Positions 36,642 through 54,836 of a stretch of 64,000 nucleotides of DNA are shown here, in pieces. The DNA comes from a virus, in the IMG/VR virus record IMGVR_UViG_3300033150_000846, positions 1 to 64,000 of that record. The stretch is one strand, 5' to 3'. Numbering within the stretch: the first letter of the stretch is position 1; each line of letters begins with the position of its first letter. The notes beneath the pieces are model-generated. The model worked only from the letters and a program-made list of their open reading frames with translations, made no database searches and was not told where the DNA came from. The position numbers and the translations under genes are program-made.

Positions 36642-36869
36642 TTAGTTTTCAACTTCGTTGAGAAGGTCAAGGATGGCGGTTTCCAAACTTGAAACAGACC
36701 TTCTAACGTCATCTTCAGCTACAATCATCGTATCGGAAAGTTCGTCAACCTTGTCGCTAATCTTGGTGATCATCTCTGCGTGACTCTCATACTGAGTACG
36801 CTCAAGCTTAGTAACTAAATCGAGCATTTCTTGGAGAATATCAGTGAGAGCTTTTTTTGTCTCAGTCAT
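36642..36869 (-). CDS. coiled-coil paralogue array, member 3
   Basis: A 75-residue acidic protein (MTETKKALTDILQEMLDLV) built almost wholly of heptads. Compared with members 1 and 2 it keeps the DL..LE..Q...H.E...KI..KV opening and the AE.DV..(S/A)LS.L...ILDLLNE ending. No Cys, no membrane segment. Probably forms homo- or hetero-oligomeric bundles. Confidence 0.6.
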   Translation of the reverse strand: MTETKKALTDILQEMLDLVTKLERTQYESHAEMITKISDKVDELSDTMIVAEDDVRRSVSSLETAILDLLNEVEN

Positions 36870-36878
36870 TATGGGCTC

Positions 36879-37106
36879 CTAGTCTTCAGCTTCGTTTACT
36901 ATATCGATGAGGACAGACTGTAGGTCTGATAAAGCTTCTTCAACCTCTGCTTCAGCGTCTCCTATCTTTTCTTTCAGAGTGTGGACTTTTTGCGTAACCT
37001 CGTCGAGTATCTCTTCATGGCCCTTAAACTGGGCCATGTCAAGGTCCGCGACTAAGGCAATCACCTTGTCAACAACGTCGATTTGGTCTTGCTTTAACTT
37101 AAGCAT
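36879..37106 (-). CDS. coiled-coil paralogue array, member 2
   Basis: A 75-residue acidic heptad protein (MLKLKQDQIDVVDKVIALV). The core AQFKGHEEILDEVTQKV and the ending DAEAEVEEALSDLQS match member 1 closely. Each gene of the array has its own start and ribosome site, so all appear to be expressed. Confidence 0.6.
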   Translation of the reverse strand: MLKLKQDQIDVVDKVIALVADLDMAQFKGHEEILDEVTQKVHTLKEKIGDAEAEVEEALSDLQSVLIDIVNEAED

Positions 37107-37123
37107 TGGTTTGGCTCCTTTGG

Positions 37124-37354
37124 TTAGGCTTCTTCGAGTTTGTCCAGCTCATCGAGGATGATAGTGTCCAGTTTTGAGAGAGCGTCTTCAACCTCTGCTT
37201 CAGCCTCAATCATCTTTTCTCCAATACGCTGGACTTCTTCTGTAATCTTGTCAAATATTTCATCGTGGGCGTCAAGCTGAGCTTGCTTAAGGTCGTCGGT
37301 TAGGTCAAGTATTTTTTCGAGGGTGTCTTTGAGGGTTTTTGTTGTTTTGGTCAT
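37124..37354 (-). CDS. coiled-coil paralogue array, member 1
   Basis: A 76-residue acidic heptad protein (MTKTTKTLKDTLEKILDL). AQLDAHDEIFDKITEEVQ and AEAEVEDALSKLDTI match member 2. It is separated from its neighbours by short gaps containing AGGAGCC sites; the repeated tctcc/ggagcc context suggests recent tandem duplication. Confidence 0.6.
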   Translation of the reverse strand: MTKTTKTLKDTLEKILDLTDDLKQAQLDAHDEIFDKITEEVQRIGEKMIEAEAEVEDALSKLDTIILDELDKLEEA

Positions 37355-37372: not shown

Positions 37373-37639
37373 TTAGGCCATGTGGGATACAAGGGAAGCC
37401 TTTTTCAGGTCTTCCCGAGCAAGGGAAAGCCCGTCTCTCTTCAGTTGGGAGAAGAGCAACATTATCTCGTGAAGGTTAAGAATGCGGGGCTTCCACACCT
37501 TGTTGAGGCCTGGGAAGTTCGGGTCAATGAAACTAATTGCCGCTGTCATAACTAGTCTTGCTGCCGGAGTACCCCCCGGCATCGACACAACTACCCCAGT
37601 CTCAAATAATGTGTGCATCCTTTGAATTACCGCATTCAT
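37373..37639 (-). CDS. small paralogous protein B
   Basis: An 88-residue protein (MNAVIQRMHTLFETGVVV). The ATG at 37639 follows AAGGAACAGGAAA; an earlier in-frame ATG at 37687 would add a run of arginines encoded by an AGA microsatellite. It aligns with the next upstream gene over its whole length (HTLF..VVVS...RLVM.A..F.DP.FPG...W..R.....IM.LF.Q), so the two are tandem duplicates. Function unknown. Confidence 0.55.
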   Translation of the reverse strand: MNAVIQRMHTLFETGVVVSMPGGTPAARLVMTAAISFIDPNFPGLNKVWKPRILNLHEIMLLFSQLKRDGLSLAREDLKKASLVSHMA

Positions 37640-37679
37640 TTTCCTGTTCCTTCTCTTTCTTCTTCTTCTTCTTCGTCTT

Positions 37680-37961
37680 CTACTCATGGTTAACAACTGA
37701 CTGCACCAAGATCGTAGTTCCTTCAAGAGACCTTGGCCACTCTGTCCGCATTTGGTTAAATAAGTTCATGATGTCTGGGATGGAGATAGTTCGTAGCCTC
37801 CAAGTAGAGCCAAAGCCCGGAAACATAGGATCGGCAAACTTGAGGGCCGTGAACATTACCAGCCTGCTCCTGTCGGTAGGCCTGACTAGAGACACAACCA
37901 CAGGATCACCAAATAAAGGGTGAACTCTATTCTTCAAGAATTTTGGTGAGCGTGGTGTCAT
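37680..37961 (-). CDS. small paralogous protein A
   Basis: A 93-residue protein with VHPLFGDPVVVS, RLVMFTALKFADPMFPGF and IPDIMNLFNQM, matching paralogue B. Its end overlaps the arginine-coding microsatellite. No enzymatic motif. Function unknown. Confidence 0.55.
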   Translation of the reverse strand: MTPRSPKFLKNRVHPLFGDPVVVSLVRPTDRSRLVMFTALKFADPMFPGFGSTWRLRTISIPDIMNLFNQMRTEWPRSLEGTTILVQSVVNHE

Positions 37962-38196
37962 CAGGGGTTTCTTGCGCCTCCACTTTAGCGGCCGTCTTCA
38001 ACTGAGTAATGTTCGATCCGAGGTCTTTGAGAGCCTTGGTAAGAATTGAAATGACTCTGAGACGAGTATCAATACTTACTTCATCTTGGTCGGCTTCTCG
38101 GAATGCCTTGTCAACCAACCGGCTAACCCGGAGCCGAGTCTTCTTCATGGCTTGAATGGTCGCGTTAATTTCCCGCTGTATAGACAGCTCTTTCAT
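37927..38196 (-). CDS. hypothetical helical basic protein
   Basis: An 89-residue protein starting MKELSIQREINATIQAMKK, chosen because AAGGAGAAAGCAA precedes that ATG; it overlaps the end of the amidotransferase gene by 32 nt. Highly charged helices. No recognised motif. Confidence 0.5.
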   Translation of the reverse strand: MKELSIQREINATIQAMKKTRLRVSRLVDKAFREADQDEVSIDTRLRVISILTKALKDLGSNITQLKTAAKVEAQETPDDTTLTKILEE

Positions 38197-39211
38197 TTGC
38201 TTTCTCCTTTTTCGTTTTTCCTTCAGTGTTCTCTTGCATGATGACTGCAAGGAGAGCACCGTTCAACAACTCGATGCATTCAGGGCAGAGAACATCAGTG
38301 TTGCCCTTTGTGGGCTTGTGGCACCTAATGCACTGTGTTACGGTTTTGGAAACCCCGCTGCCAAACAGCTGAGCTATAGGGGGATTGACTGGGGAGGCGT
38401 AGGGACCTCTGTAGTAGCGCTGGTAAGGAAGTTCGTAAGAATCGTCGTCTTGAAAAGTGTGGATTGCGGAAGCTGCTCGTTTCCAAATTCCTCGTTCGCC
38501 AAAAGGGAGGTCAGCGATGGGAACCAAGTTTTGTGTGTCAGCGTCGAGGTCCACCGCATAAAGAACTTTAGGATCGATTGTGTAAATGCTGGGCTCTTCT
38601 TCTCCGGTTGCAAACCTGTAGGCTGTGGTCAATGCTTCCATGGTTGAGGCGTAAGCTGTGCCGCCTTCTGGAAGATCGACAAAGTACAAAGCCTCGTGGT
38701 TGAAGCGGAAGAAAATCATGTAAGGCTTTGGGGTGGTTACGAGGGCGGCACAGGAGCCCCAGCCTCGAATTTCCCCAACGTCCTTTTTGAGTAGGAGGTA
38801 GTCCCATATGATTTGGGAGTCCACTTCGTACTTCAGGGAGCTTTTTGTGAGGAGTTCTTTGAAGTTGGAGATGACGCCGTTGTGAGTACCGGCGACCTTC
38901 ACGAAACTGCCGTCCTCTTCTTTGCGACCAAAGAGGAAGGGGTGAGCGTTTTCTTTTGTTACATCACCGTGAGAGGCTGCCCTAGTGTGGGCGATGAAGG
39001 GGGATTTTGCTTTTGCAGGTTTGCTCAGCAGCTTCTTGGTGAAGAAGGCGGAGCTTATTCTGCCTACGTCCTTCTGGATTTTGATGCCGTCTTTGTCGAA
39101 GTAGGCCAGCCCGTAGCTGTCAGTTCCACGGGCTTCCATAGCATTGGCGAGGAACGGGGCCATAATGGCTGCTTGTTTGTTGAATTCAGTGAATCCGAAA
39201 ATTCCACACAT
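38165..39211 (-). CDS. class II glutamine amidotransferase (Ntn hydrolase) with C-terminal zinc ribbon
   Basis: A 348-residue protein starting MCGIFGFTEF: the Cys directly after Met is the Ntn nucleophile of GlmS/PurF/AsnB-type glutaminases. ARGTDSYGLAYF, IAHTRAASHGDVTKENAHPF and GTHNGVISNF follow as in the family. No synthase domain follows, so the ammonia or a hydrolysis product must go to a partner. The C terminus carries a Cys4 zinc ribbon (CIRC..CPEC), preceded by the interspersed motif (FGSGV). It opens a cluster with two amidoligases and an ATP-grasp enzyme. The start at 39211 is fixed by the need for Cys at position 2. Confidence 0.85.
   Translation of the reverse strand: MCGIFGFTEFNKQAAIMAPFLANAMEARGTDSYGLAYFDKDGIKIQKDVGRISSAFFTKKLLSKPAKAKSPFIAHTRAASHGDVTKENAHPFLFGRKEEDGSFVKVAGTHNGVISNFKELLTKSSLKYEVDSQIIWDYLLLKKDVGEIRGWGSCAALVTTPKPYMIFFRFNHEALYFVDLPEGGTAYASTMEALTTAYRFATGEEEPSIYTIDPKVLYAVDLDADTQNLVPIADLPFGERGIWKRAASAIHTFQDDDSYELPYQRYYRGPYASPVNPPIAQLFGSGVSKTVTQCIRCHKPTKGNTDVLCPECIELLNGALLAVIMQENTEGKTKKEKANERAVYTAGN
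38352..38366 (-). repeat. interspersed 15-bp motif, copy 11
   Basis: ACCCCGCTGCCAAAC on the + strand; on the coding strand of the amidotransferase gene it reads GTTTGGCAGCGGGGT and encodes FGSGV. Confidence 0.95.
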
Positions 39212-39218
39212 TTGTTTG

Positions 39219-39602
39219 TTATTCTCCTTCGATTTCCGGGAGGCCCTGGAACAAAGCATACAGGGCTTCGCTTGAGATAGAGTAGTCTTTGTTGCTCTCA
39301 ATGTTGAAAGGAAACACACCGAGGATGGTGTACTTCCGGGATTTTACGAGGTCGTGGAAGGTTGTTCGTCTTTCCATGAGGAGTGTTGCGGCTGGGTCTT
39401 CAAGGACTTGTGGACGTATTCTGCGACCATGGTTGGTTTCCCTAGCGTTGGTAGCAAACTTCTGTTGGAACAGCACCAAGGCGTGTTCTTGGCGGAAGTA
39501 GGAGACCGCCAGAACCAAGTTTTCGATTCCTTTGGTTGCATACCAACCCTTGGGGAAGCCTTTGATTTCTACTGATTTACTCTTCCGGTAGAGATCCATC
39601 AT
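39219..39602 (-). CDS. hypothetical protein in the amidoligase cluster
   Basis: A 127-residue protein. The ATG at 39602 follows AAGGAG by 7 nt; a second ATG follows immediately. Central part VLAVSYFRQEHALVLFQQKF is beta/helix mixed; no motif recognised. It lies between the amidotransferase and a zinc-finger gene, overlapping the latter by 26 nt, so it may serve the same pathway. Confidence 0.55.
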   Translation of the reverse strand: MMDLYRKSKSVEIKGFPKGWYATKGIENLVLAVSYFRQEHALVLFQQKFATNARETNHGRRIRPQVLEDPAATLLMERRTTFHDLVKSRKYTILGVFPFNIESNKDYSISSEALYALFQGLPEIEGE

Positions 39603-40008
39603 CAAAAAGCTCCTTTTCTTCAATCATGAAACGTGTGATGTCGCTGTATAGAGGGGTACTCCATTCTCTCCAATTCCAAACTTTGTTGGCGGTGTGGGAA
39701 ATTACTCGCACAGGCTTTCCTTGCATGACAAGAGAATCGGCCAAGTTCCTTGTGCTGCTGCTGAAGTGGCTTGCTGATGGATGAGTGTACTTTGGCGGCA
39801 GTGTCAGCAAGAGGTGGTCGAGAAGAACTTCTCGCATTGAGAAGCCACTTCGCGCCTTTTTCCATTCTTTGAAGCACTGTTTGCACCAGGGAAAGAAGCC
39901 GCTCTTCCTGTTTTTGTCTTGGTAGAAGTCGAAGGCTGGGCGGGCTTTGCCACAGCGAGGGCAGACCCTGTCTTTAATAAGCTCCAGCTCGTCGTTTTCT
40001 TGTTTCAT
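39577..40008 (-). CDS. zinc-finger protein, endonuclease VII-like ribbon
   Basis: A 143-residue protein with CPRCGKARPAFDFYQDKNRK...CKQCFKEW near residues 15-50, the zinc ribbon found at the start of phage recombination endonuclease VII-like and other HNH proteins. No catalytic HNH His-Asn pair follows, so it may be only a binding module. ATG 40008 follows AAGGAG; the gene overlaps the amidoligase gene by 35 nt. Confidence 0.55.
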   Translation of the reverse strand: MKQENDELELIKDRVCPRCGKARPAFDFYQDKNRKSGFFPWCKQCFKEWKKARSGFSMREVLLDHLLLTLPPKYTHPSASHFSSSTRNLADSLVMQGKPVRVISHTANKVWNWREWSTPLYSDITRFMIEEKELFDDGSLPEE

Positions 40009-40966
40009 GGAATTCCCACTCCTTTTGGAAGGTCTCTTGGCGACGATTGAACCAATCGACCAGGCTTTTGTTGAAGTACTTTTCGACAAATTGTTTGAGG
40101 GTCAGGTCTTTGAGCTTGTCGTAGGCCTTGACTCTTGCGGTCAAGTCTACGTAGGTGGCGCAGAAGAGGGGCCACAGCAACCCTTCTTCGTCAATGGCTC
40201 CTTCATGTTGGCGGAACTCGATGGTTCCACGAGAGAGGTAAGAATGGATGTTGCAGCCGTAGTACCTCGCTCCCATGTATCGAGTTCCTTTGGCCCGGAT
40301 AAAGGACCGGGAGTTGAGGGGAGACAAAGTTAGCATTCCGTAAGTCCCAAATGCGAGGAGGGACTTTATTGCACGGGCTGTAGTAGCTTGTTCAAGGCGA
40401 GAGATTGCCGCTCGCATTTGTTCGGATAGAGGTTTTGCGTATCCTCCGTGGTTGGAGTCGGGGTTGTAAATTCTTCTGACCGGGAAGAGACGGTTGAAGT
40501 CCCTTTCCCATTGGCCATAAAGGAGGAGGAAAGAACGAATGTCCCAGGCGTAGAGGTCTCGGGCATCTACATGAACGTGAAGGGAGCAAGTGTCGTTCAC
40601 GGTGACTTCTTGGGCTTTGAAGAGGGTGAGAAGTTGGGGAATGTACTCCAGGATAGCGTCTCCGGCAATTGGGCCAACGACGAGTTCTTGCCGCGAGGGC
40701 CTTACGCTGCTGTCGTAGACCTGGGCAAGGTTGAGTTTTGCAGATAGAGTTTGGTAGTGTGCGGAGAGGGTTTCTTCCAGGCCGTTCCATTCAGCAAGCT
40801 CAAACTCCATCCCAATAGCTCGTTTGGTGGTGATTGTGTGGAAGGGGCCACTGGGAAACTTTTTATGTTTGGGCAAGACGAAAGGCATATGGCGACATGT
40901 GCACTTATATTTGTACTCACCGCACCACTGGCAGCGAGCGGAAGATCTGGTTTTAGCCATTCTCAA
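39974..40966 (-). CDS. amidoligase, Amidoligase_2-type (COOH-NH2 ligase)
   Basis: A 330-residue glutamine synthetase-fold ligase of the Amidoligase_2 group. Motifs in order: GMEFEL (about residue 52), YDSSVRPSRQELVVGPIAGD (about 83-102), CSLHVHVD (about 125) and RGTIEFRQHEGAIDEE (about 246). The two Glu residues, the HVH pair and the EFR segment form the metal/ATP site in this fold. A Cys4 motif (CQWCGEYKYKCTC) opens the chain. Family members join a carboxylate to an amine, often in peptide or surface modification. It overlaps the ATP-grasp gene by ATGA. Confidence 0.8.
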   Translation of the reverse strand: MRMAKTRSSARCQWCGEYKYKCTCRHMPFVLPKHKKFPSGPFHTITTKRAIGMEFELAEWNGLEETLSAHYQTLSAKLNLAQVYDSSVRPSRQELVVGPIAGDAILEYIPQLLTLFKAQEVTVNDTCSLHVHVDARDLYAWDIRSFLLLYGQWERDFNRLFPVRRIYNPDSNHGGYAKPLSEQMRAAISRLEQATTARAIKSLLAFGTYGMLTLSPLNSRSFIRAKGTRYMGARYYGCNIHSYLSRGTIEFRQHEGAIDEEGLLWPLFCATYVDLTARVKAYDKLKDLTLKQFVEKYFNKSLVDWFNRRQETFQKEWEFHETRKRRAGAY

Positions 40967-41727
40967 TTTTCCTCGTTGATTCTGGTTTCAAGAAACTCGG
41001 CTGTCTCTTCGCCTAGAGATTGAAGGCTTTCGCTTGGGTTTTGTAGGAGTAGTGTTTGGAGGAAGCGCCGCCTTGTGTGAGGAGACTTCAGGGCGAAAGC
41101 GGAGTTGACCTCCAAGACAATGAACTCTCCTGAAGGAAGTTGTAGAATGTCTACAGCTCCAAAGTCATAACCGAGGGCGTCTACAGCTTTTCGAGCAAGA
41201 GGGCGGATTCCTTTGGGAGGCTTCTCAGTGAAGGAAATTACCCATCCTAGCCGCCTTGAGCGGATGTTTGGCAGCGGGGTTTCCTCTAGGGAGACTTTTT
41301 TGCCGACAGCGAAAGTTCGGGCTTTTGGAAGGTAAGAAGAGCTTGCACAGAAGACTCTCCACTCAGCGGTTACTTCGCTGATCCAGGCTGTCCAATAGTC
41401 GGCAGTAAGCCACTTTTCTGAGATAGTGCGTGGTGGTGTTGGGAAGTAGATGAAGCGGCCTTGTGAATGGTTGTTACGGCGACCTACTACTAGTTGACCT
41501 TCGCAAAGGCCTTGTGTTGCTTCCTGTAGTGTAGTGTAGAAAGTTGGAACGGGAATTTCGTGGTCTTTGAGAAGGGAAAGTTGGTTGAGGCCGTAGAGTT
41601 TTGGTTGACCTCCTATGGAGTTGGGGCGTTCTATGCCCCAAGCGAGGTCTTGGTCTGAGGGGATTGGGGCTAGGGTGTTTCGTAGCCAACGTACAGTTGG
41701 CCACTTCGAGTTGCCGTAGACTTTCAT
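40963..41727 (-). CDS. ATP-grasp ligase
   Basis: A 254-residue protein with the ATP-grasp C-terminal signature FGAVDILQLPSGEFIVLEVNSA near residues 190-211 (Asp, Glu and Asn Mg2+ ligands) and a basic strand QLVVGRRNNHSQG in the nucleotide-binding lobe. The size and the ALGYDFGAVD phrase resemble phage and RimK/YheC-like ATP-grasp peptide ligases. With the amidoligases it probably joins amino acids or modifies a peptide or protein end. The interspersed motif at 41266 encodes PLPN in a loop. Confidence 0.75.
   Translation of the reverse strand: MKVYGNSKWPTVRWLRNTLAPIPSDQDLAWGIERPNSIGGQPKLYGLNQLSLLKDHEIPVPTFYTTLQEATQGLCEGQLVVGRRNNHSQGRFIYFPTPPRTISEKWLTADYWTAWISEVTAEWRVFCASSSYLPKARTFAVGKKVSLEETPLPNIRSRRLGWVISFTEKPPKGIRPLARKAVDALGYDFGAVDILQLPSGEFIVLEVNSAFALKSPHTRRRFLQTLLLQNPSESLQSLGEETAEFLETRINEEN
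41266..41280 (+). repeat. interspersed 15-bp motif, copy 12
   Basis: GTTTGGCAGCGGGGT on the + strand inside the leftward ATP-grasp gene. Confidence 0.95.
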
Positions 41728-42551
41728 AATTCGACGTAGCTCCTTGCAACTTTGCCCTTTCGAAGGGCTTCAATGGTTTGTGCGATGTTGGGAGGGATTG
41801 TTGTTTTGTGGGCTGTGAAGAGGCTTCTGATTTGGTAAAGGATTTCGTCACAGACTGTGACTGCATTGTCGATTGTTATGGGGCGGTAATGTTTTGTTCG
41901 CCCGACTTTGTAAACAAGGCCTGAAGGAGCCACTGCGCTCAACCAGAATTTGCTACTTATAGAGGGGTTAAGGAAGGGGAAGAAGGTTTGTTGGAGGAGC
42001 TTTCCGTTTCTGAGGAGGAGATCGACAAGTTCTTTGTTGAGTGTGTACCTTTCGGTGTCTGGTTGGGTTTTGGCAAAGACTTCAGCGGCGATGGTGGAAA
42101 TTGATGAGGGGGGTTCTAACTTTGGGCTGATGCTTTCCGGCCATTTTGACAGGACTTCGCACTCTCTTTGGAGGCCAGGAGCATTGGTGAAGGCTATTGT
42201 TATTCTGCTGAGGGGGGAAGCGATGATTCCTCCAAACTTGTCGGAAGGGTGTCTGTTTGATTGAAGGTAGAGTTTGCCTGATCCTGAGTAAGGGGGTAGA
42301 ATGGCCCTAGCTATGGCTTTAAGGTAGGTGCGAGTGCTTAGGTCTTTGAAGGAGGAGATTCCCAAAGTGGGGTAGAGAGGGTAGACAACGCTTGAAGGCA
42401 GGCGTAAGATGGAGCTTGTCAGTTCTGGGGACCATTCCTCGTCTAGGTTTACGTTTTTGTGGACTCTTTTCTCCAGGGGAGGGTAGATCATGAATAAGAG
42501 GTTGTAAGCAGGGTGTGACTTGTGGGTTTCTGAAAGAGTGACTGTGATCAT
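41724..42551 (-). CDS. hypothetical protein between ATP-grasp and amidoligase genes
   Basis: A 275-residue protein with no motif I recognise. The sequence is Pro/Ser-rich with mixed alpha/beta character (LPSSVVYPLYPTLGISSFKDL, LSRITIAFTNAP). It overlaps the ATP-grasp gene by 4 nt and lies 9 bp from the second amidoligase, so it is almost certainly part of the same pathway, perhaps as substrate-binding subunit or modified target. Confidence 0.6.
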   Translation of the reverse strand: MITVTLSETHKSHPAYNLLFMIYPPLEKRVHKNVNLDEEWSPELTSSILRLPSSVVYPLYPTLGISSFKDLSTRTYLKAIARAILPPYSGSGKLYLQSNRHPSDKFGGIIASPLSRITIAFTNAPGLQRECEVLSKWPESISPKLEPPSSISTIAAEVFAKTQPDTERYTLNKELVDLLLRNGKLLQQTFFPFLNPSISSKFWLSAVAPSGLVYKVGRTKHYRPITIDNAVTVCDEILYQIRSLFTAHKTTIPPNIAQTIEALRKGKVARSYVEL

Positions 42552-42560
42552 TGGTTTCTC

Positions 42561-44015
42561 CTATAGTGAGACTACTTTGGCTTTTCGGTTGGTTGCTCGG
42601 CGAAGAAGGTTGGTGCAATGGGATATTGCACAATCCTCTGATGAGCTATGGCCTGTCCAAGAGTCGAGTTTCCAGGCTTGGCGAGCGGACCATCTTGGAA
42701 AGGCGTCTTTTATGCGAATGTGGAACAGTTTGTTGATGGTTGTGGCGAGGTCGTACTTTAGGTAGTAACCTAGGGGGGCGGTGATTTTGGGGAGCCATTC
42801 TCTGGCGGTGGCGTAATCGTAGTTGAGAAGGGTGTGGTAAACTTTTTCGGGGTCCGGGGTTTCTCTTTCTAGTTGGGAGAGATTGCCTGTGAGGGCGGCG
42901 TCGATTACTGCTCGTCCTATTTCTAAAGCTAAGTGGACGAGTACCGGGGAATACATGGTAGCTGATGATAGGACTCTGTACTCAATGCCATGGGGAGGTC
43001 TTCGAAATTCTCCTGGAAGGCCATAGTATTTGCGACGTTCTGTGGTTTCTATCCCTTCAAGTATGCACATGTTTGGGATAGCTACGTAGTAGTCGAGCAT
43101 TCTGATTAGTCGGGCTATTTCGGAGTTTGACTTTGGGGCGAACTCTTTGAGGCCGAAGTGAATGTGGAAGCCTGCTGTTCGGATTGGCATGTTGGGATCA
43201 AGGCAACGGTTTTGTGGTTGATCGTAGGCGTTCATTGAAGGATCACAGCCAAGTTCCTTGAATTGAGGAGGGTAAGAGTCGATATTGGGAATGTTGACGG
43301 TGTCGATGGGCTTGACTTTGTAGTTGTAGTAATCGCAGATGTTGATTAGTTGTTTGAAAGATGCTTGGAGGGAATCTACGGTGTAGGCAAAACAGTAGTA
43401 GGGGTCTGTTTGGAACTCGGCTGCAAAGCCATCCCAATATGGGCCGTGAGCTTTGCGAATCGCCGTTTGGTAAGAATCGGGGTAGACACGGTACTTCTTG
43501 AGGTAGTCTGCCATTTTGGCTTCTTGTTCCTTTAGGGTGGGAAGGAACTTAAAGGCTGGGACAAGGTTTCCTCTTCGATTGAAGACGAAAAATTCTGGGT
43601 CGAAGCCAGCTCCCATGTGCATCCAGTAGGCTTGGGGAGATCTTGGAAGGCGGTAGTTGGCGGTAGGGAGAGGCCTGTCAAAGTCCCAGATTTGGTAGAT
43701 GTAGTGTTGGTTGTCGAGGGAGAGGGAGAAAGGAAGAACTGAAGAACCAAACTCCCAGTCTTTGGTCCTAACGAAGTTTATTCTTCGGTTTGTGCTGTGG
43801 GTCAGAAAGGAGGAGAGTTTTGCGGCTTCTTTTTGGGTTACTGTTGGGGGCAAAGTGTAGGGGTAGTTGTGTGCTACTAGCTTGGTGCCCCATTTGGAGA
43901 TGTCTTGGTTGGGGAATAGAGACGCCTTTCGATGGCTGCCGTCGGTTTTGGTTTCGATGAGGATGGAGGGGGCCTTTTCCAGGTCCTCCCAAGATTCAAT
44001 CTTCTTGACCTTCAT
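42561..44015 (-). CDS. phiEco32-like COOH-NH2 ligase-type 2 amidoligase
   Basis: A 484-residue protein. GFDPEFFVFNRRGNLVPAFKF (about residues 137-157) is the hallmark opening of the phage phiEco32-like amidoligase group; DGFAAEFQ (about 196), TAGFHIHFG (about 286) and HGIEYRVLSSA (about 342) complete the glutamine synthetase-like metal site. The first 130 residues are an additional domain. It differs from the Amidoligase_2-type enzyme next door, so the cluster has two distinct amidoligases. Substrate unknown. Confidence 0.8.
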   Translation of the reverse strand: MKVKKIESWEDLEKAPSILIETKTDGSHRKASLFPNQDISKWGTKLVAHNYPYTLPPTVTQKEAAKLSSFLTHSTNRRINFVRTKDWEFGSSVLPFSLSLDNQHYIYQIWDFDRPLPTANYRLPRSPQAYWMHMGAGFDPEFFVFNRRGNLVPAFKFLPTLKEQEAKMADYLKKYRVYPDSYQTAIRKAHGPYWDGFAAEFQTDPYYCFAYTVDSLQASFKQLINICDYYNYKVKPIDTVNIPNIDSYPPQFKELGCDPSMNAYDQPQNRCLDPNMPIRTAGFHIHFGLKEFAPKSNSEIARLIRMLDYYVAIPNMCILEGIETTERRKYYGLPGEFRRPPHGIEYRVLSSATMYSPVLVHLALEIGRAVIDAALTGNLSQLERETPDPEKVYHTLLNYDYATAREWLPKITAPLGYYLKYDLATTINKLFHIRIKDAFPRWSARQAWKLDSWTGHSSSEDCAISHCTNLLRRATNRKAKVVSL

Positions 44016-45293: not shown

Positions 45294-45477
45294 GTTGTCT
45301 CCTAGCAAGGCGGGGAACCACGCAGTCTCGGAAAGCTCTACGCGCAATTCGTTGGGCATGGAGCTGGTTCTTTGCGACGCGATGAAACTGTCCTTGGACG
45401 TAGACAGAGAAGGTTTTGTTGTAAATGCCCTTCTCAATGTGAATTGACGTGTGAGGGTAAGGTCTCTCAATTTTCAT
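45274..45477 (-). CDS. small basic protein
   Basis: A 67-residue, Arg/His-rich protein starting MKIERPYPHTSIH after a perfect AAGGAGGAACAC ribosome site. The second half (QRIARRAFRDCVVPRLARRQ) is strongly basic and may bind nucleic acid. It overlaps both neighbours. Confidence 0.5.
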   Translation of the reverse strand: MKIERPYPHTSIHIEKGIYNKTFSVYVQGQFHRVAKNQLHAQRIARRAFRDCVVPRLARRQHDRSYH

Positions 45478-45740
45478 GTGTTCCTCCTTAGCAAACGGTC
45501 CCATTGAATGGGCTTGTTTGGCCAGAAGCCGAACAAGGTTTTGTCCTTAGGGTGTGAGTCAAAGTGAAAGCCCTTTGGAGCGGAGTCCTTAAGTTTGATG
45601 TAAAGGTCGTGGATGTACCATGGGCCTTTTGGAGGAAGCTCTTCGCCTAGTGCGTGAAGGGCTCTCTCGAAATTCGCAACCATCCTTTTAGTCTCGTAGG
45701 TACCATATGAGACTATGATGGGGTTAGGGGTCGTCTTCAT
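45474..45740 (-). CDS. small paralogous protein, AP-G-HP-GFW type (a)
   Basis: An 88-residue protein whose C-terminal half (LKDSAPKGFHFDSHPKD..LFGFW) resembles that of the gene at 46106-46351 (LNELAPEGYYFGAHPGDG..LGFW). The two seem to be paralogues separated by two genes. Function unknown. Confidence 0.5.
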   Translation of the reverse strand: MKTTPNPIIVSYGTYETKRMVANFERALHALGEELPPKGPWYIHDLYIKLKDSAPKGFHFDSHPKDKTLFGFWPNKPIQWDRLLRRNT

Positions 45741-45746
45741 GTTTTT

Positions 45747-45989
45747 TCACCAGTAGACAGCGTGGTCATGCAACTGTCTGCGTCCAACCTTGAAAAATTT
45801 TTCAATGAGATGGTTGGCAATCGACGCGTAGTAACCACAACCTGAGATGTCATCGTTGCGGGCTGCAGCTAGGGCTTGTTGCAAGTTTGTCTCAACTTCT
45901 TGCAGGCATTGTTTACGAGCCGCTAGAACACTGTTCTGGCGGCGAAGTTTCTCTTCTTCGGGCAAATGTTCCCATTCTTCGTATCTCAT
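45747..45989 (-). CDS. hypothetical helical protein
   Basis: An 80-residue protein starting MRYEEWEHLPEEEK after AAAGGAGACACA. Mostly helical with Gln/Ala/Arg heptads and a phrase NDDISGCGYY that is echoed (NGDISGCDLHF) in the C-terminal part of the Csx16-like gene at 46379. Function unknown. Confidence 0.5.
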   Translation of the reverse strand: MRYEEWEHLPEEEKLRRQNSVLAARKQCLQEVETNLQQALAAARNDDISGCGYYASIANHLIEKFFKVGRRQLHDHAVYW

Positions 45990-46000
45990 TGTGTCTCCTT

Positions 46001-46081
46001 TTAGTCGAGGGTAGCTAGCCAGTAGGCTAGCCAGAAGTATAGTATGCCTATGGCAAAGGCTAACAATTGCATTGGCTCCAT
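46001..46081 (-). CDS. 26-residue single-pass membrane peptide
   Basis: Starts MEPMQLLAFAIGIL and ends LAYWLATLD, almost entirely one hydrophobic helix. It fits exactly in the gap between two genes, its TAA touching the AAAGGAG site of the next. No strong ribosome site of its own. Could be a tiny membrane effector; coding status is uncertain because of its size. Confidence 0.35.
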   Translation of the reverse strand: MEPMQLLAFAIGILYFWLAYWLATLD

Positions 46082-46105
46082 AAGCGTTTTTCTCAGCCAA
46101 GTAAC

Positions 46106-46351
46106 TTAGTAATTTTCGATTGACCAGAAGCCAAGGCAAGCCCCGTCTCCAGGGTGAGCACCAAAATAGTAGCCTTCAGGAGCAAGTTCATTGAGTTGGT
46201 CGTCTAGGTGCTCTAGGTAGTACTCATCGTGAGGTTCCTTTTCGAAAGGAATGTTGAGAGAGTTGAGGAAGTCTTCGAAGGCTTCAATTAGATCCTCTGT
46301 ACGGAGAGTACCTTCAGAGACTGTGTAGTTGCGAAGATCGATGTTTTTCAT
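46106..46351 (-). CDS. small paralogous protein, AP-G-HP-GFW type (b)
   Basis: An 81-residue acidic protein (MKNIDLRNYTVSEG) whose last 35 residues match those of the gene at 45474-45740 (AP.G..F..HP.D....GFW). No known domain. Likely an early protein. Confidence 0.5.
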   Translation of the reverse strand: MKNIDLRNYTVSEGTLRTEDLIEAFEDFLNSLNIPFEKEPHDEYYLEHLDDQLNELAPEGYYFGAHPGDGACLGFWSIENY

Positions 46352-46378
46352 TGAGTGTCCTTTCTTGGCAAGGTGTTT

Positions 46379-46900
46379 TCAGGTGATTTCCCAGAGGTCA
46401 AACTCCTTTTCTTTTTTCTTGAAATGGAGGTCACAGCCAGAGATGTCGCCGTTATCCAAAGCTACGGTGATTGCGTGCAGGAGGTTTTCCATCCCACGCT
46501 TTTGAGTCTTGTCTTGCGCTTTCATGTCTTCCTTTGAAGGTTCTTCGAAGTCGATGAGACTTCGAGGATCTGAGTAGCCGCCTAAGCGGGCAGCCTCGTG
46601 GAGTTTGATGATTTGGTTGTCGTCTAGGACGACTAAAGCGTTGAGGTAAGCTCCCTCCTTGGCCATTTCTTCGGCTGTAAGACCAGGCCGAGAGGGACGA
46701 CCGTTTGGGAAACAAATTGCCCAGACGGCTTTGGCTATTGCAGCTAAGTGAAGGGGGATATTGCCTGCAACAACTTTGTTGCGGACATCCTTTTCTGTAA
46801 CTTCGGTCTTTATTGGGGCGTTTTGAAAGCCCGGCAAGTTCTGGCGGATGAAGTCAATTGCGCCTTTGTGGCGTGAGACAATAAGGTTGTTGTTTGGCAT
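46379..46900 (-). CDS. Csx16-like protein with C-terminal extension
   Basis: A 173-residue protein. Residues about 5-92 fit the Csx16 (VVA1548) pattern: LIVSRHKGAIDFI, VAGNIPLHLAA, and RPGLTAEEMAKEGAYLNAL. Csx16 proteins accompany type III CRISPR systems and have been reported as ring nucleases that degrade cyclic oligoadenylate. A phage copy would therefore be expected to blunt type III signalling, but this is inference. The last 80 residues are an extra helical part containing NGDISGCDLHF. Confidence 0.55.
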   Translation of the reverse strand: MPNNNLIVSRHKGAIDFIRQNLPGFQNAPIKTEVTEKDVRNKVVAGNIPLHLAAIAKAVWAICFPNGRPSRPGLTAEEMAKEGAYLNALVVLDDNQIIKLHEAARLGGYSDPRSLIDFEEPSKEDMKAQDKTQKRGMENLLHAITVALDNGDISGCDLHFKKKEKEFDLWEIT

Positions 46901-46924
46901 TGTGGCTCCTTTTCTTGGTTGCGG

Positions 46925-47113
46925 CTAGGCAGTGGCTGCTCTGGTTGCTAGTGGGGCAGCCACGAAGATTGTGATTGGTTTTGGTTCACCGGCTTTGGTA
47001 AACCTCAGTTCATCGCGGAGAACTGCCAGTACCTCGCAATGCTCCCGGTGGTTGTTGATCCAAATGTCCCCTGTCTTGATAGGGGCTTCTGTTTTGTAGA
47101 TTCTTGCTAGCAT
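46925..47113 (-). CDS. small hypothetical protein
   Basis: A 62-residue beta-rich protein (MLARIYKTEAPIKTGDIWI) between the two Csx16-like genes. No motif recognised. A GGAGACAC site precedes the ATG. Confidence 0.45.
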   Translation of the reverse strand: MLARIYKTEAPIKTGDIWINNHREHCEVLAVLRDELRFTKAGEPKPITIFVAAPLATRAATA

Positions 47114-47123
47114 TTGTGTCTCC

Positions 47124-47408
47124 TTAGTCTTTTGGGACTTCGACTGTGAGGAGCCTTTTAATGTGGGCTCCGTAGAGTCGAAGTTGGGTTGCAGTTAGCC
47201 TTCTCCCTTTTGGAGGAGAGGCGTTAAAGCAAAGGGCAAAGACTTCTTTGGCTTCTGCGGCAATGGAGACTGGGATGTCTCCTGCAATAGACGCGCCTTT
47301 AGCGTCTTCAGTGGAGATGAAGGAAAGGACACGAGCATCTTTGAATTGGGGAAGGAGCTCCCTGATGTAGTCTATTACAGCAGGGTGTTCCGTAACAATG
47401 ATTTTCAT
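47124..47408 (-). CDS. Csx16-like protein, single domain
   Basis: A 94-residue protein covering just the Csx16-type domain: MKIIVTEHPAVIDYI, IAGDIPVSIAAEAKEVF and KGRRLTATQLRLYGAHI, in the order of VVA1548 proteins and parallel to the gene at 46379. The usual RH of the first motif is EH here. ATG 47408 is chosen because a longer frame would run through the neighbour. Two such genes close together suggest duplication and divergence. Confidence 0.55.
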   Translation of the reverse strand: MKIIVTEHPAVIDYIRELLPQFKDARVLSFISTEDAKGASIAGDIPVSIAAEAKEVFALCFNASPPKGRRLTATQLRLYGAHIKRLLTVEVPKD

Positions 47409-47421
47409 TTGAGAGTCCTTG

Positions 47422-47652
47422 CTAGCACAGGGCAAAGACGCGTTTGTGCCTTTGGTCGAACTCAGCGCGAACTCCGTAGCCGAGTTCTTCGGTTGGGTCA
47501 CAAAGAGCGTCCATATAATCGACGTCTTCGTCAAGGACTACTGCTGCAGTGAGAGGGTCAATGCGGTGAAATTCATTTTCATGCATGTACTGGGCTAGAC
47601 GGCCAAGAACATGATGTTTTTCAAAGACCGGGTCTTTACTTTCGTGAGTCAT
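47422..47652 (-). CDS. small hypothetical protein
   Basis: A 76-residue acidic protein (MTHESKDPVFEKHHVLGRL). Overlaps the next upstream gene by 17 nt. No motif recognised. Confidence 0.5.
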   Translation of the reverse strand: MTHESKDPVFEKHHVLGRLAQYMHENEFHRIDPLTAAVVLDEDVDYMDALCDPTEELGYGVRAEFDQRHKRVFALC

Positions 47653-51238: not shown

Positions 51239-51567
51239 ACAAGGAAACGATCCAACTAGGGGAGCCAGGCCGACGCATTCTCGTCGTGAGCGTCGAGGAC
51301 CTTCTCAACCTCCTCACGCACTACACAGACGGCGACGTTCCCCTTGACGCCGAGCCCCTCTTCGTGGGCTTCAACAAGTACCTGCAGCGCATGGTCGGCA
51401 TTTTCACCCGTTCCCGCCAGTGGCGACACGCAAGAGTTGACCCCGTCACCGGCGTCGCCAAGCCCCTGCACATCAGGTACGAAGGCAAGAAAATCATGAG
51501 CTGGCACCAAAGGCCCGAAGAGCCCACAGCCTGGAAGGAAGGTCCCGATGCACCCAAAAGAGACTAA
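51235..51567 (+). CDS. small paralogous protein, D-NL-Y type (b)
   Basis: A 110-residue protein, paralogous to the preceding gene in residues 12-65 with a longer basic C terminus (RYEGKKIMSWHQRPEEP). Starts with ATGA overlap. Function unknown. Confidence 0.55.
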   Translation: MNKETIQLGEPGRRILVVSVEDLLNLLTHYTDGDVPLDAEPLFVGFNKYLQRMVGIFTRSRQWRHARVDPVTGVAKPLHIRYEGKKIMSWHQRPEEPTAWKEGPDAPKRD

Positions 51568-52414
51568 AGGCTCAGTCCTCCTCGTCGGCGATGCAATGAT
51601 TGACGAGTTCATTCTCGTCACTAAAAGGAAGTCCCACACTCCCCTCGTTTACTACGCAAGCCCCCCAGCGGTCCGTCCCGGCGGTGCCGCCAACACCGCC
51701 AACCTACTAAAGTATCTCGGAGTCCCAACCACCCGCGTGTACTCCAAAGACATTACATGGCGAGTCCCAACCAAAACGTACATTCTCGCCTCTGACAACG
51801 CCATTCTTCTGCGCCTCGACCGGGACGACCATGTCAGGCCCCTGGACTACGACCAACTAGCCAGTCAGCTCCTCAAGTTCGACAACGTGGTCGTGAGCGA
51901 CTATAACAAGGGAACCATCGACGACAAAGCTATCGACCTCATAAACATCTTGGCCATGCGCCTCTTCATTGACACCAAGCGCGACCCCTATAGTTGGCGA
52001 AAGGACGCGACCTTCTTCCCAAACGAAACCGAATTCCAAAAGTACCAAGACCACTACCTAAAACTCCCCCGTGTAGCACACAAGCAAGGGGTCAAAGGAG
52101 CCAGGTTCCTCTCTTACGGAACCGTCAAGACCGAGGTTGAAGCACCGACCATCGCGTCTTATTACGCTTGTCAGCCTCACACAATCGGGGCGGGAGACGC
52201 CTTCCTTGCAGGCTGGGTCCGTGCCACCGTCGCAGAGAACCTAACGAACGACCGGGACCGGCTGGAGTTCGCTGTAGTAACCGCCTCCCTCTCATGCACG
52301 TACCCCTACACGCAAGGAGCACCCCTCCCCCAAATAAAGAAGTACATCGAAGAAGGCTCCCAAGACCTTCTCTTCTGTGAGCCCCTAGGAACTAAAAATG
52401 AAAGCTATACTTAA
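51548..52414 (+). CDS. PfkB-family sugar kinase, HldA/HldE-N-like
   Basis: A 288-residue ribokinase-fold protein closest in motif pattern to D-glycero-beta-D-manno-heptose-7-phosphate kinase (first half of HldE): VLLVGDAMIDEF (about residues 10-21), RPGGAANTANLLKYLGV (about 42-58), VVSDYNKGTI (about 117), DTKRDP (about 139), FFPNETEF (about 150) and the catalytic GAGDAFLAGW (about 213-222). This step makes heptose-1,7-bisphosphate in ADP-heptose synthesis. A matching nucleotidyltransferase lies 1.5 kb downstream. GGAAGGAAGG precedes the ATG. The exact substrate is not proven. Confidence 0.75.
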   Translation: MHPKETKGSVLLVGDAMIDEFILVTKRKSHTPLVYYASPPAVRPGGAANTANLLKYLGVPTTRVYSKDITWRVPTKTYILASDNAILLRLDRDDHVRPLDYDQLASQLLKFDNVVVSDYNKGTIDDKAIDLINILAMRLFIDTKRDPYSWRKDATFFPNETEFQKYQDHYLKLPRVAHKQGVKGARFLSYGTVKTEVEAPTIASYYACQPHTIGAGDAFLAGWVRATVAENLTNDRDRLEFAVVTASLSCTYPYTQGAPLPQIKKYIEEGSQDLLFCEPLGTKNESYT

Positions 52415-52655
52415 ACGTTTCGCAAAAAAGTTCGTGCTACTGGACAACTTCTGCCACTTGTGTGGTCGAAAAACTGCTCCTTGGAGGGCCTCTAACAGTC
52501 TATGGAACAAAGTAAACCCGAAGCATGAAATTCTTTGCTGGGACTGCTTCTACCAGCTAGCTAGCGACAAGGGAGTTCACGTGAGCATTCCCTTCGTGAC
52601 AGAGACACGAAAATGGGTAAATACACACCACAACCGGAGGAAGCGAAGCTTGTAA
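52398..52655 (+). CDS. conserved phage Cys-pair protein
   Basis: An 85-residue protein with NFCHLCGRKTAPWRASNSLWN and LCWDCFYQLA, a two-CxxC zinc-binding protein of a type seen in many phages. Basic tail HHNRRKRSL. AGGAACTAAAA precedes the ATG. Function unknown. Confidence 0.65.
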   Translation: MKAILKRFAKKFVLLDNFCHLCGRKTAPWRASNSLWNKVNPKHEILCWDCFYQLASDKGVHVSIPFVTETRKWVNTHHNRRKRSL

Positions 52656-52990
52656 ACAAAGTGTGGGGATGCGAGCAAATCGTCATAAACCGCGACTTTT
52701 GCTTCAAGATCATGTACGTGTTGCCCCATGCCCGCTCTTCAATTCACAAGCACGCAAAGAAGGACGAGCTCTTCTACGTCCTGAAAGGCCCAATACTCTT
52801 CGAGGTCGGCAAAAACATTCGCCGTCGTCGCGAAATTGTGGCCCACGAAGGAACAATCATTCACGTTCCCCCGAACACCTGGCACCGATTTACTAACTTT
52901 GGCAGCGGGGTTACACAATTTTTAGAAGCTTCTACACACGATGATCCAAACGACTCAAGACGAGCAACGAAGAGTACTCGCAATTTCTGA
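52613..52990 (+). CDS. cupin-domain protein (sugar isomerase-like)
   Basis: A 125-residue single cupin with the two metal motifs: SSIHKHAKKDELFYVLKG (about residues 41-58, His, His, Glu) and HVPPNTWHRFTN (about 84-95, His). The ending FLEASTHDDPNDSRR is typical of sugar-related cupins of the mannose-6-phosphate isomerase type. Next to heptose genes it could be an isomerase or epimerase for the sugar pathway; this is context only. The interspersed motif (52897) encodes FGSGV between the second metal motif and the end. Confidence 0.7.
   Translation: MGKYTPQPEEAKLVNKVWGCEQIVINRDFCFKIMYVLPHARSSIHKHAKKDELFYVLKGPILFEVGKNIRRRREIVAHEGTIIHVPPNTWHRFTNFGSGVTQFLEASTHDDPNDSRRATKSTRNF
52897..52911 (+). 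repeat. interspersed motif, copy 14
   Basis: CTTTGGCAGCGGGGT: intact 13-bp core plus T, with the first G replaced by C. In the cupin gene, read as FGSGV. Confidence 0.93.
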
Positions 52991-53915
52991 CAATATTTTC
53001 GTTCGTGACAAGGTACCAAAATATCCGGAGTGGTTTGGTCTCAACAACGAAACCTTGGAGTGGCTGGAAAAGTGCCCAACCAAGCTCAGAAAGAAAGCTG
53101 CCAAGGCAATGGCACAGGTTGAGTGGGACAAGTGCCACGACTCGCTGTTTTACTGGTTGGACCACACTCAGCATGTGAAGACGGACAAGTGGCCGGAGGG
53201 TCTCCCCTACGTCTTCACTTATGATCCTCACCAAGCGTTTCGCTGCACTCTCTGCAAAGGAACGGACAAGGACCGCACTCTGACTTTCGACAAACTGGCG
53301 GTCCACCTGGAGCTCGCCCACAGTCTCAGAGCTCCAAGCCACAGCGCTGTCCTCTCGTACTTCGAGGAACTGCCGAGCATCCGCCCGTTTCCCTACCATC
53401 TCCCTTACATCAAGCCTATAGCCGAGAGATGGCTCACGGAACGTTATCTCTTCATTATGAAGAGTCGGGACATGGTCGCCACTTGGATGGTCATTGCCTT
53501 CTACACCTGGGACACAATCTACAATGAGGGAGCGCAGAACATCGTCCAAAGTCTGAACGCGCGGAAAGCCTACGACCTCGTCAGCCGAGCTCACCACATA
53601 TACAAGAATCAACCGAAAATTCTCAGGGACATAAGCCCGGCCAAGCTGTCCGTCGGCAGCATGAAAGGTGGAGAATTCATTGTGAAAGGGGGAGAGTCTA
53701 TAATGATGGGATTCCCTCAAGACCCGGACCAGATTCGCCAGTTTCACCCTAGAGGTCTTTACCAAGATGAGGCTGCCTTTTTGCCCCAGGCAGCCGCTAG
53801 CTTCGCTGCCGCCAAGCCATCCATCCAGAATGGAGGCCGCTTCACGGCCACCAGTTCCGCCAACCCTGGGTGGTTCGAGGCGGCGTGCATGGACATGTTG
53901 AGTAACTATGACTAA
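52941..53915 (+). CDS. terL: terminase large subunit, ATPase half
   Basis: A 324-residue protein with the packaging ATPase only: Walker A-like IMKSRDMVATW near residues 172-182, Walker B GLYQDEAAF near 272-280 and motif III TATSSANPGWF near 303. It stops after that, where a complete large terminase continues into the nuclease; the nuclease is encoded separately at 54837. A C2H2 finger-like insertion (CTLCK...HLELAH) sits near residues 101-127. It starts inside the cupin gene without a clear ribosome site. Confidence 0.85.
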   Translation: MIQTTQDEQRRVLAISDNIFVRDKVPKYPEWFGLNNETLEWLEKCPTKLRKKAAKAMAQVEWDKCHDSLFYWLDHTQHVKTDKWPEGLPYVFTYDPHQAFRCTLCKGTDKDRTLTFDKLAVHLELAHSLRAPSHSAVLSYFEELPSIRPFPYHLPYIKPIAERWLTERYLFIMKSRDMVATWMVIAFYTWDTIYNEGAQNIVQSLNARKAYDLVSRAHHIYKNQPKILRDISPAKLSVGSMKGGEFIVKGGESIMMGFPQDPDQIRQFHPRGLYQDEAAFLPQAAASFAAAKPSIQNGGRFTATSSANPGWFEAACMDMLSNYD

Positions 53916-54468
53916 AGACACAAAGTTCTTTGAGAGGCGCGTGCCCAAAACTTGGTTTACTTGCAAGCAACATGAAGACGTGCTGTCCGCCCTCCAGAAC
54001 ACAACCGCCCTCAGTCTCAACAAAGTGAAACTGCTCCCGAGGCCATTGGGTATGATTAACGGAGGGTTCGACATTCTCACAAGCGGCCACCTTCGGCTCA
54101 TTGGAGAGGCCCGGCACAGGTGTGCCACGCTCGTGGCCCTCTTGGACAGTGACGCAAAGCTGAGGCGAACCAAAGGGAAGCTCCGCCCGATCATGAGCTG
54201 GCCCCAACGTGCAACATCTCTATACTACTGTGGAGCCGACGCCGTCTTCGAGGTAGACAACGACTTCGAGTTCGTAACAATCGTCGGGGCCATTGACCCA
54301 GATTTTCGGGTCCTCGGAGTTGAGTACAAGGGGCACCCTTCACGGTTCCCCGGCATACCGACAATCTACGTGCGTGACAGTGGAATACACACCACCGACA
54401 TCGTAACCAAGCTAATCGAGAAAATAAAAAATGAAGAGCAAAACGACGATCTCCCTGGCAAAACTTAA
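53908..54468 (+). CDS. HldC/HldE-C-like nucleotidyltransferase
   Basis: A 186-residue cytidylyltransferase-fold protein. GGFDILTSGHLRLIGEAR (about residues 53-70) is the GxFDxxHxGH nucleotide-binding motif (first His replaced by Thr), followed by VALLDSD, a KGKLRPIMSWPQR stretch and a late IHTTDIVTKLIEK (as STT in HldE). It would transfer AMP or CMP to a sugar-1-phosphate or similar; the HldE-like kinase at 51548 suggests heptose-1-phosphate. The gene is inserted between the two terminase halves and overlaps the ATPase gene by 8 nt. Confidence 0.7.
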   Translation: MTKDTKFFERRVPKTWFTCKQHEDVLSALQNTTALSLNKVKLLPRPLGMINGGFDILTSGHLRLIGEARHRCATLVALLDSDAKLRRTKGKLRPIMSWPQRATSLYYCGADAVFEVDNDFEFVTIVGAIDPDFRVLGVEYKGHPSRFPGIPTIYVRDSGIHTTDIVTKLIEKIKNEEQNDDLPGKT

Positions 54469-54835
54469 AAAAGACTCGTTGAGGTTCATTGACGATATAC
54501 TGGACCTGCTAAAGCTGAACGACTGGGAAGTAACCTTCTCCATAGTCTCAAAGCTACCCGACAACGACCTTGGGGAGTGCAGATGGAACTTGGAGTTTCG
54601 GGAGGCCCAAATCAGGGTAATGCGCCCCTCCAAACTGTACCCTCTGGCGGACGACAGAATGGAAGACTACAGGACCACTATCATCCACGAGATTGCCCAC
54701 ATTCTATTCGCAAAGGTGACAGGAAAGCCAGGGGTTGGTCTCTCCGTCCACGAGACTATCGCCTTGGAAAACGGCGTGGAGTCCGTAACAAACGCCATTG
54801 ACACTTTAATGTTTGGGAAAAGATACAAGTACTAG
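54431..54835 (+). CDS. putative zinc metallopeptidase-like protein
   Basis: A 134-residue protein with TTIIHEIAHILFAK near residues 76-89, the HExxH zinc-peptidase signature, and a downstream HE (VHETIALENG) that could give the third ligand. The rest is small and lacks a signal peptide, so a cytoplasmic peptidase or an inactive relative is possible. It lies between terminase halves and overlaps the nucleotidyltransferase by 38 nt. Confidence 0.6.
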   Translation: MKSKTTISLAKLKKDSLRFIDDILDLLKLNDWEVTFSIVSKLPDNDLGECRWNLEFREAQIRVMRPSKLYPLADDRMEDYRTTIIHEIAHILFAKVTGKPGVGLSVHETIALENGVESVTNAIDTLMFGKRYKY

Positions 54836-54836
54836 T

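Follow-up and report, generated by a model that had tools for sequence, protein, structure and literature searches.

A phage operon of amide-forming enzymes, very probably a divergent variant of a widespread four-enzyme cassette

What would a phage assemble with two amidoligases of the glutamine synthetase fold, an ATP-grasp ligase and a glutaminase encoded side by side? The question is raised by a stretch of viral DNA, here called the window, that covers bases 1 to 64,000 of a 64,275-base virus record in IMG/VR (IMGVR_UViG_3300033150_000846). A reading of the bare sequence (the original prediction) had placed these four enzymes and three genes of no assignable family between positions 38165 and 44015, had related them to the phiEco32-type sets, and had held that the phage product of such sets is not known. 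All three points stood up: the four enzymes have Pfam or PHROG matches at these positions on the minus strand, the three further genes are present, the link to the phiEco32-type sets is strong, and the published papers repeat the prediction only. Beyond this, we found that the set is widespread in phages, that the window holds a copy without its three usual partners, and that one of its proteins, of 275 amino acids (aa), had a recognisable relative only in a near-identical phage. The locus is very probably a diverged version of the four-enzyme cassette known from other phages.

Results

The seven genes run on the minus strand from 44015 down to 38165 as one tight operon. Gaps between successive genes are 9, -4, -4, -35, -47 and 7 bases, where -47 applies to the listed TTG start of the ~127-aa gene and becomes -26 with its likely start, and Shine-Dalgarno sites are present within the operon. 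In the order COOH-275-ATPG-AMI-143-127-GAT2, the genes are as follows:

42561-44015, minus strand: COOH.NH2 ligase type 2 (COOH), 484 aa (PF14395, phrog_3815, conserved residues, model fold)
41724-42551, minus strand: 275-aa orphan, in the slot of the ~190-aa partner of known cassettes (single relative, L002)
40963-41727, minus strand: ATP-grasp carboxylate-amine ligase (ATPG), 254 aa (phrog_2599 at 9.5e-15, conserved residues)
39974-40966, minus strand: Amidoligase_2 (AMI), 330 aa, with an N-terminal Cys cluster, CxxC...CxC (PF12224, conserved residues)
39577-40008, minus strand: zinc-ribbon protein, ~143 aa (open reading frame [ORF] open to 40089, listed as 170 aa)
39219-39602, minus strand: ~127-aa protein (ORF open to 39623; 134 aa from the listed TTG)
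38165-39211, minus strand: class II (N-terminal nucleophile, Ntn) glutamine amidotransferase (GAT2), 348 aa, with a C-terminal CxxC...CxxC zinc ribbon (PF13230/PF13522, phrog_13807)

Genes of the four families that make up a cassette (PF14395, Amidoligase_2, ATP-grasp and class II amidotransferase) are thus adjacent on the same strand. Profile-profile comparison with the known cassette families gave probabilities of 100% for the COOH.NH2 ligase, 99.2% for the amidoligase, 99.6% for the glutaminase and 99.1% for the ATP-grasp enzyme, an agreement far above chance. The reading frames of all cassette genes are open in the window, and alignments with 10 to 13 phage homologues per enzyme, plus more distant cassettes, show that the signature catalytic residues are retained in all four enzymes. 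The original prediction had named the loss of active-site residues as what would speak against it; we saw no such loss in these alignments or in a structural model of the COOH.NH2 ligase.

The COOH.NH2 ligase passed the curated Pfam score (PF14395, 54.2 bits versus a cut-off of 25, 1.6e-14) and matched phrog_3815 at 2e-33. Its core, residues 134 to 415, is flanked by an N-terminal extension of ~130 aa and a C-terminal one of ~65 aa, and keeps D139-P-E141, E200, H284-x-H286, R327, R338 and E345-x-R347; the alignment columns Q183 and K162 were artefacts and were left out of the conserved set. In the AlphaFold2 model, residues 134 to 415 are mostly good (block predicted local distance difference test [pLDDT] 58-95, mainly >76), and this core superposes on YbdK with a Z-score of 15.3 (3.6 Å over 245 residues). 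Dop, GshF and PafA tie with YbdK (Z 15.3-14.8 for YbdK, Dop and PafA), and glutamine synthetases reach Z ~12-13. The modelled core therefore has the predicted fold of the glutamine-synthetase/glutamate-cysteine-ligase superfamily. Both extensions are of low confidence in the model and matched none of the other cassette families in profile-profile comparison.

Amidoligase_2 likewise passed its curated score (PF12224, 49.9 bits versus a cut-off of 22, 5.1e-13) and keeps E54-x-E56, S87, H130-x-H132, R165, Y235, N239 and E250-x-R252. The motifs of both ligases correspond to the ExE metal-binding strand, HxH and ExR of glutamine synthetase. The glutaminase matched PF13230 (32.7 bits, cut-off 23), PF13522 (29.4 bits, cut-off 27) and phrog_13807 (1.4e-15), and its profile found GlmS and PurF among solved structures. 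It keeps a Met-Cys-Gly start with Cys2, R77, the oxyanion pair N111-G112 and D131, the residues by which the GlmS/PurF glutaminase site is defined. The Met1-Cys2-Gly3 start requires that the gene begin at 39211 and not at 39319, where the longer mechanical ORF opens.

The ATP-grasp enzyme keeps E122-x-R124, D193 and E206-x-N208, which we take to serve ATP and metal, and all family members have Arg at position 83. Lys46, nearly invariant elsewhere, is Gly in the window and in L108, a related phage described below. Among solved structures, the family profile had its best hits (7qys/5zct) in RimK-type alpha-L-glutamate ligases. The window protein itself scored 17.6 and 17.0 bits against the Pfam models of the R2K clade, below the cut-offs of 26.3 and 26.2, and 22.5 bits against the RimK family TIGR00768, where the cut-off is 143.4. 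By its sequence it appears to be a distant, RimK-like relative only.

How common is this set, and what does the window copy lack? A tblastn search found the COOH.NH2 ligase in 285 phage records, and we ran the cassette profiles on the annotated regions of 14 records and on 80 IMG/VR loci; the amidoligase profile was too variable for scanning a collection. These 94 loci exclude the window and its 94%-identical relative L002, and some represent one phage more than once, so that the counts are not independent. All four enzymes occurred in 74 of the 94, and 70 of these 74 also encode protein X, of about 190 aa. The four-enzyme set is widespread in phages, and its kind is already known. Many four-enzyme loci carry in addition GAT1, an amidotransferase of the Peptidase_C26 type, or a gamma-glutamyl cyclotransferase, both common, not universal, and the usual order is GAT1-GAT2-COOH-X-AMI-ATPG. 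No fusions between cassette enzymes were seen among the loci compared, and no DNA-level relatives among phage records.

The window has no recognisable homologue of X, with no hidden Markov model hit to the X gene, and neither PF06094 (gamma-glutamyl cyclotransferase) nor PF07722 (Peptidase_C26) was found in the whole 64,275-base record, with positive controls. It therefore lacks both a recognisable X gene and the GAT1 or cyclotransferase gene by which the classical X-containing subtype (phiEco32/LUZ24/PA11/CW02) was recognised. The X family itself (e.g., L007:3990-4538) lies directly between the COOH.NH2 ligase and the amidoligase in nearly all classical cassettes; three members scanned had no Pfam match. 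A separate clade for the window Amidoligase_2 was also considered, as a quick tree placed it outside the X-linked clade (SH-like approximate likelihood ratio test [SH-aLRT] 99), but forcing it into that clade improved the likelihood by 35.7 (approximately unbiased test [p-AU] 0.97), and the claim was dropped. In the glutaminase and ATP-grasp trees, the window positions were unsettled, with long-branch warnings.

A scan with the ATP-grasp alignment revealed a second cassette style, often with long COOH.NH2 ligases and ~340-aa glutaminases. In this set, the best relatives of all four window enzymes after those in L002 belong, at 25-33%, to L108 (IMGVR_UViG_3300024279_000008), a phage related to that of the window (DNA polymerase 49%, portal 43-48% identity). 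L108 shares the long COOH.NH2 ligase, the Cys-rich amidoligase N terminus and the short glutaminase; unlike in the window, its order is COOH-264 aa-AMI-GAT2-...-ATPG. Its 264-aa protein and the 275-aa protein of the window, which occupy the same slot, are unrelated by sequence in profile-profile comparison. Since L108 keeps the four enzymes with a different slot protein, it is the slot protein that is exchanged within the lineage and the four enzymes that stay.

The 275-aa protein had no match in Pfam, PHROG, NCBIfam or PADLOC. Its sole relative found is in L002 (93%), with none in other phages, GTDB genomes or L108. Kinship with X found no support: the profile-profile probability against X alignments of 13 or 75 members was <1%, and neither PDB sequences nor a structure prediction lent support, the latter (pLDDT 40, from two sequences) being unusable as a model. 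For the zinc-ribbon gene, 143 aa is preferred to the listed 170 aa because a Shine-Dalgarno sequence, AAAAGGAG, precedes ATG 40008; only its zinc-ribbon part resembles endonuclease VII/Lar-like PHROGs, at 1.8e-7 and weaker. The ~127-aa gene more likely starts at ATG 39602, judging from a Shine-Dalgarno-like stretch before it, and its product had no family match in the Pfam, PHROG and NCBIfam scans.

Are these genes under selection? Six cassette genes could be compared with L002. The ratios of nonsynonymous to synonymous substitution rates (Ka/Ks) were 0.13 for the COOH.NH2 ligase, 0.20 for the 275-aa protein, 0.27 for the ATP-grasp enzyme, 0.04 for the amidoligase, 0.03 for the 143-aa protein and 0.09 for the 127/134-aa protein, compared with 0.02 for two replication-region genes. 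With ratios between 0.03 and 0.27, all six are therefore real genes under selection. Relative to the replication-region genes, amino acid changes were in excess in the COOH.NH2 ligase, the 275-aa protein and the ATP-grasp enzyme (Fisher p 4e-6 to 6e-10), with no significant excess in the amidoligase (Fisher p 0.23). Relative to the window, the glutaminase gene of L002 (L002:11641-12700) shows two gaps, of 2 and 83 bases, which split its frame and reflect either biology or assembly.

Discussion

What, then, would the operon do? We think it probable that it encodes a ribosome-independent assembly line for amides or peptides. Judging from the families, the glutaminase would free NH3 from host glutamine, Amidoligase_2 would use it to amidate an ATP-activated carboxylate, the RimK-like ATP-grasp enzyme would add an amino acid, probably glutamate, and the glutamine-synthetase-fold COOH.NH2 ligase would form a further, possibly gamma-glutamyl, amide bond. 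Amidoligase_2 and the glutaminase look like the minimal unit because both occur as a lone pair in some phages.

As to the acceptor, our tentative choice is a host envelope peptide, e.g., a peptidoglycan precursor, that might be altered during infection to exclude competing phages. No other single target seems as likely to us as the envelope: protein tagging and a free small molecule rank below it, and DNA modification last. Iyer et al. are said to have originally proposed, in 2009, an alteration of the cell wall that blocks superinfection. The prediction has since been repeated, citing Iyer et al. (PMC10580990, PMC5498523, PMC11318856). In favor of the assembly-line reading as a whole, we also count the directed evolution of Pseudomonas phage FJK.R9, both of whose evolved stages show missense changes, at differing positions, in the amidoligase and glutaminase genes as well as changes in four structural genes (PMC11450229). 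The raised Ka/Ks of the COOH.NH2 ligase, the 275-aa protein and the ATP-grasp enzyme is what would be expected of a role in conflict. Several observations pull the other way. The faster evolution can equally reflect relaxed constraint; the glutaminase would be dispensable in L002 if the gaps there are not an assembly error; gamma-glutamyl cyclotransferase and Peptidase_C26, the basis of the gamma-glutamyl reading, are absent from the window genome; the cassette sequence itself nowhere points to the envelope; and in the mainly open literature we found no experiment naming a product, substrate or target, although such a study may exist elsewhere.

Could the ligases instead put amino acids or a short peptide on a phage or host protein, in the manner of RimK or PafA, with the 275-aa protein as a possible substrate or adaptor? 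The proximity of the ATP-grasp family profile to RimK-type glutamate ligases and the roughly equal fit of the COOH.NH2 ligase core to YbdK, Dop and PafA are consistent with such tagging, and peptide tagging of proteins has been argued for phage R2K ATP-grasp enzymes (Burroughs 2015, PMC4431377). However, the small-molecule ligases GshF and GshA tie in Z-score, so that the fold does not choose, and we found no conserved acceptor protein; the 275-aa protein is not conserved alongside the enzymes. We therefore consider protein tagging rather unlikely. A more specific version, in which the PafA/Dop-fold-like COOH.NH2 ligase and the RimK-like enzyme would join host-protein side chains, by amide bonds, to a small phage protein or to glutamyl or peptide groups while a fast-evolving slot protein (the 275-aa protein, X or others) chose the target, is highly improbable. 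Also unlikely is a pathway to a free gamma-glutamyl or peptide amide, which might act as a signal, a counter-defence metabolite or an antibiotic-like compound. All four families include small-molecule enzymes (a GlmS/PurF-type glutaminase, a GCS/YbdK-type fold), and known cassettes carry the cyclotransferase and the C26 hydrolase too, but the window has neither hydrolase, and no transporter or acceptor gene was recognised in the operon.

The position of the cassette next to replication and recombination genes, together with a deoxynucleoside monophosphate kinase encoded at 24416-25252, might hint that the enzymes attach an amide or amino acid to bases of the phage DNA. Yet classical cassettes share such a location, many beside a primase-helicase; no cassette protein matched a known DNA-modification family in Pfam, PHROG or NCBIfam, and no base-precursor gene was recognised among the ~40 window genes scanned, which are part of the gene set. 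We give this reading very little credence. Alternatively, the cassette might be a drifting remnant that has lost its partners, as the absence of the X, GAT1 and cyclotransferase genes, the broken glutaminase of L002 and the higher Ka/Ks of three genes might suggest. That all catalytic motifs are kept, that the frames are open with Ka/Ks still at or below 0.27, and that the same four enzymes are retained in L108 in spite of large divergence make decay a poor candidate. A reading as a defence system was dropped, with no PADLOC match.

An envelope modification, if that is the product, would give phages a new way of excluding superinfection. More generally, amide-forming enzymes are common in phages, their product is not identified in the literature that we found, and this stripped-down variant narrows the question to four enzymes, of which Amidoligase_2 and the glutaminase, as a minimal unit, could be assayed alone.

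Other features of the window

By its genes, the source phage, which is uncultured, is podovirus-like: the portal resembles those of the cyanopodophages Pf-WMP4 and A-4L (~20% identity), and DNA polymerase, primase, exonucleases and a tail spike were also recognised. Shortly downstream of the cassette lie three tandem, coiled-coil-like, paralogue-like ORFs of 75-76 aa (36642-37354, minus strand), and 37373-37726 and 37680-37961 form a further duplicated-looking pair. Apparent tandem paralogues recur among the small early genes at 45474-47534 (minus strand), where 45474-45740 pairs with 46106-46351 and 46379-46900 with 47124-47534. Beside the kinase gene at 24416-25252, a YAcAr/SLOG-family nucleotide-binding protein is encoded at 25242-25649 (minus strand; PF10686, 1.3e-16).

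On the plus strand, 51548-54468 encodes a PfkB-family sugar kinase (51548-52414), a WxcM/mannose-isomerase-type cupin (52613-52990) and, at 53908-54468, an HldE-like nucleotidyltransferase. The three may form a phage-encoded set for an ADP-heptose-like nucleotide sugar, which would be a further pointer to the envelope. Matches to the terminase large subunit fall on two separate ORFs of the plus strand, 52941-53915 and 54813-55682; the stretch between them holds the nucleotidyltransferase and a zincin-like ORF of 134 aa with an HExxH motif (54431-54835), and no homing endonuclease was seen there.

Comparison with known systems

The nearest known systems are the "peptidoglycan modification cassettes" of phages phiEco32, 7-11, LUZ24/PaP3/tf/UFV-P2, PA11, CW02, RIO-1 and PSA-HP1 (PMC5498523, PMC3890496). 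Cassettes of the phiEco32/LUZ24/PA11/CW02 type comprise the same four families with the same conserved residues as the window, packed in the early/replication half. In contrast, the COOH.NH2 ligase of the phiEco32/LUZ24 type has ~265 aa versus 484 aa in the window, and the glutaminase 370-690 aa versus 348 aa; the gene order is altered in the window, which lacks X, GAT1 and gamma-glutamyl cyclotransferase and has the 275-aa orphan in the X slot. With its cyanopodophage-like portal, the phage is not close to the phiEco32/LUZ24-type genera.

Smaller sets exist as well. In Arthrobacter phages Shrooms and Ottawa and in siphovirus ctUh1700, Amidoligase_2 is followed by a class II glutaminase as a two-gene pair, and their whole genomes hold neither a COOH.NH2 ligase gene nor an ATP-grasp gene. 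In Bacillus and Geobacillus phages, an amidoligase lies near a gamma-glutamyl cyclotransferase instead of a glutaminase. There are also stand-alone COOH.NH2 ligases of ~300-330 aa (L048, L049, L053, L081, L097 and similar), with no other recognised cassette gene in the stretch fetched; in a quick tree, 11 of them group as a single clade.

Outside phages' cassettes, the core of the window COOH.NH2 ligase, whose activity is predicted, resembles the YbdK/glutamate-cysteine ligase/PafA-Dop superfamily in fold and in its ExE-like, HxH and ExR signatures, at only 10-13% identity. Relative to all these systems, the window adds a divergent variant that is poor in partners and comes from a new phage lineage, together with a sharper proposed division of labour among the enzymes.

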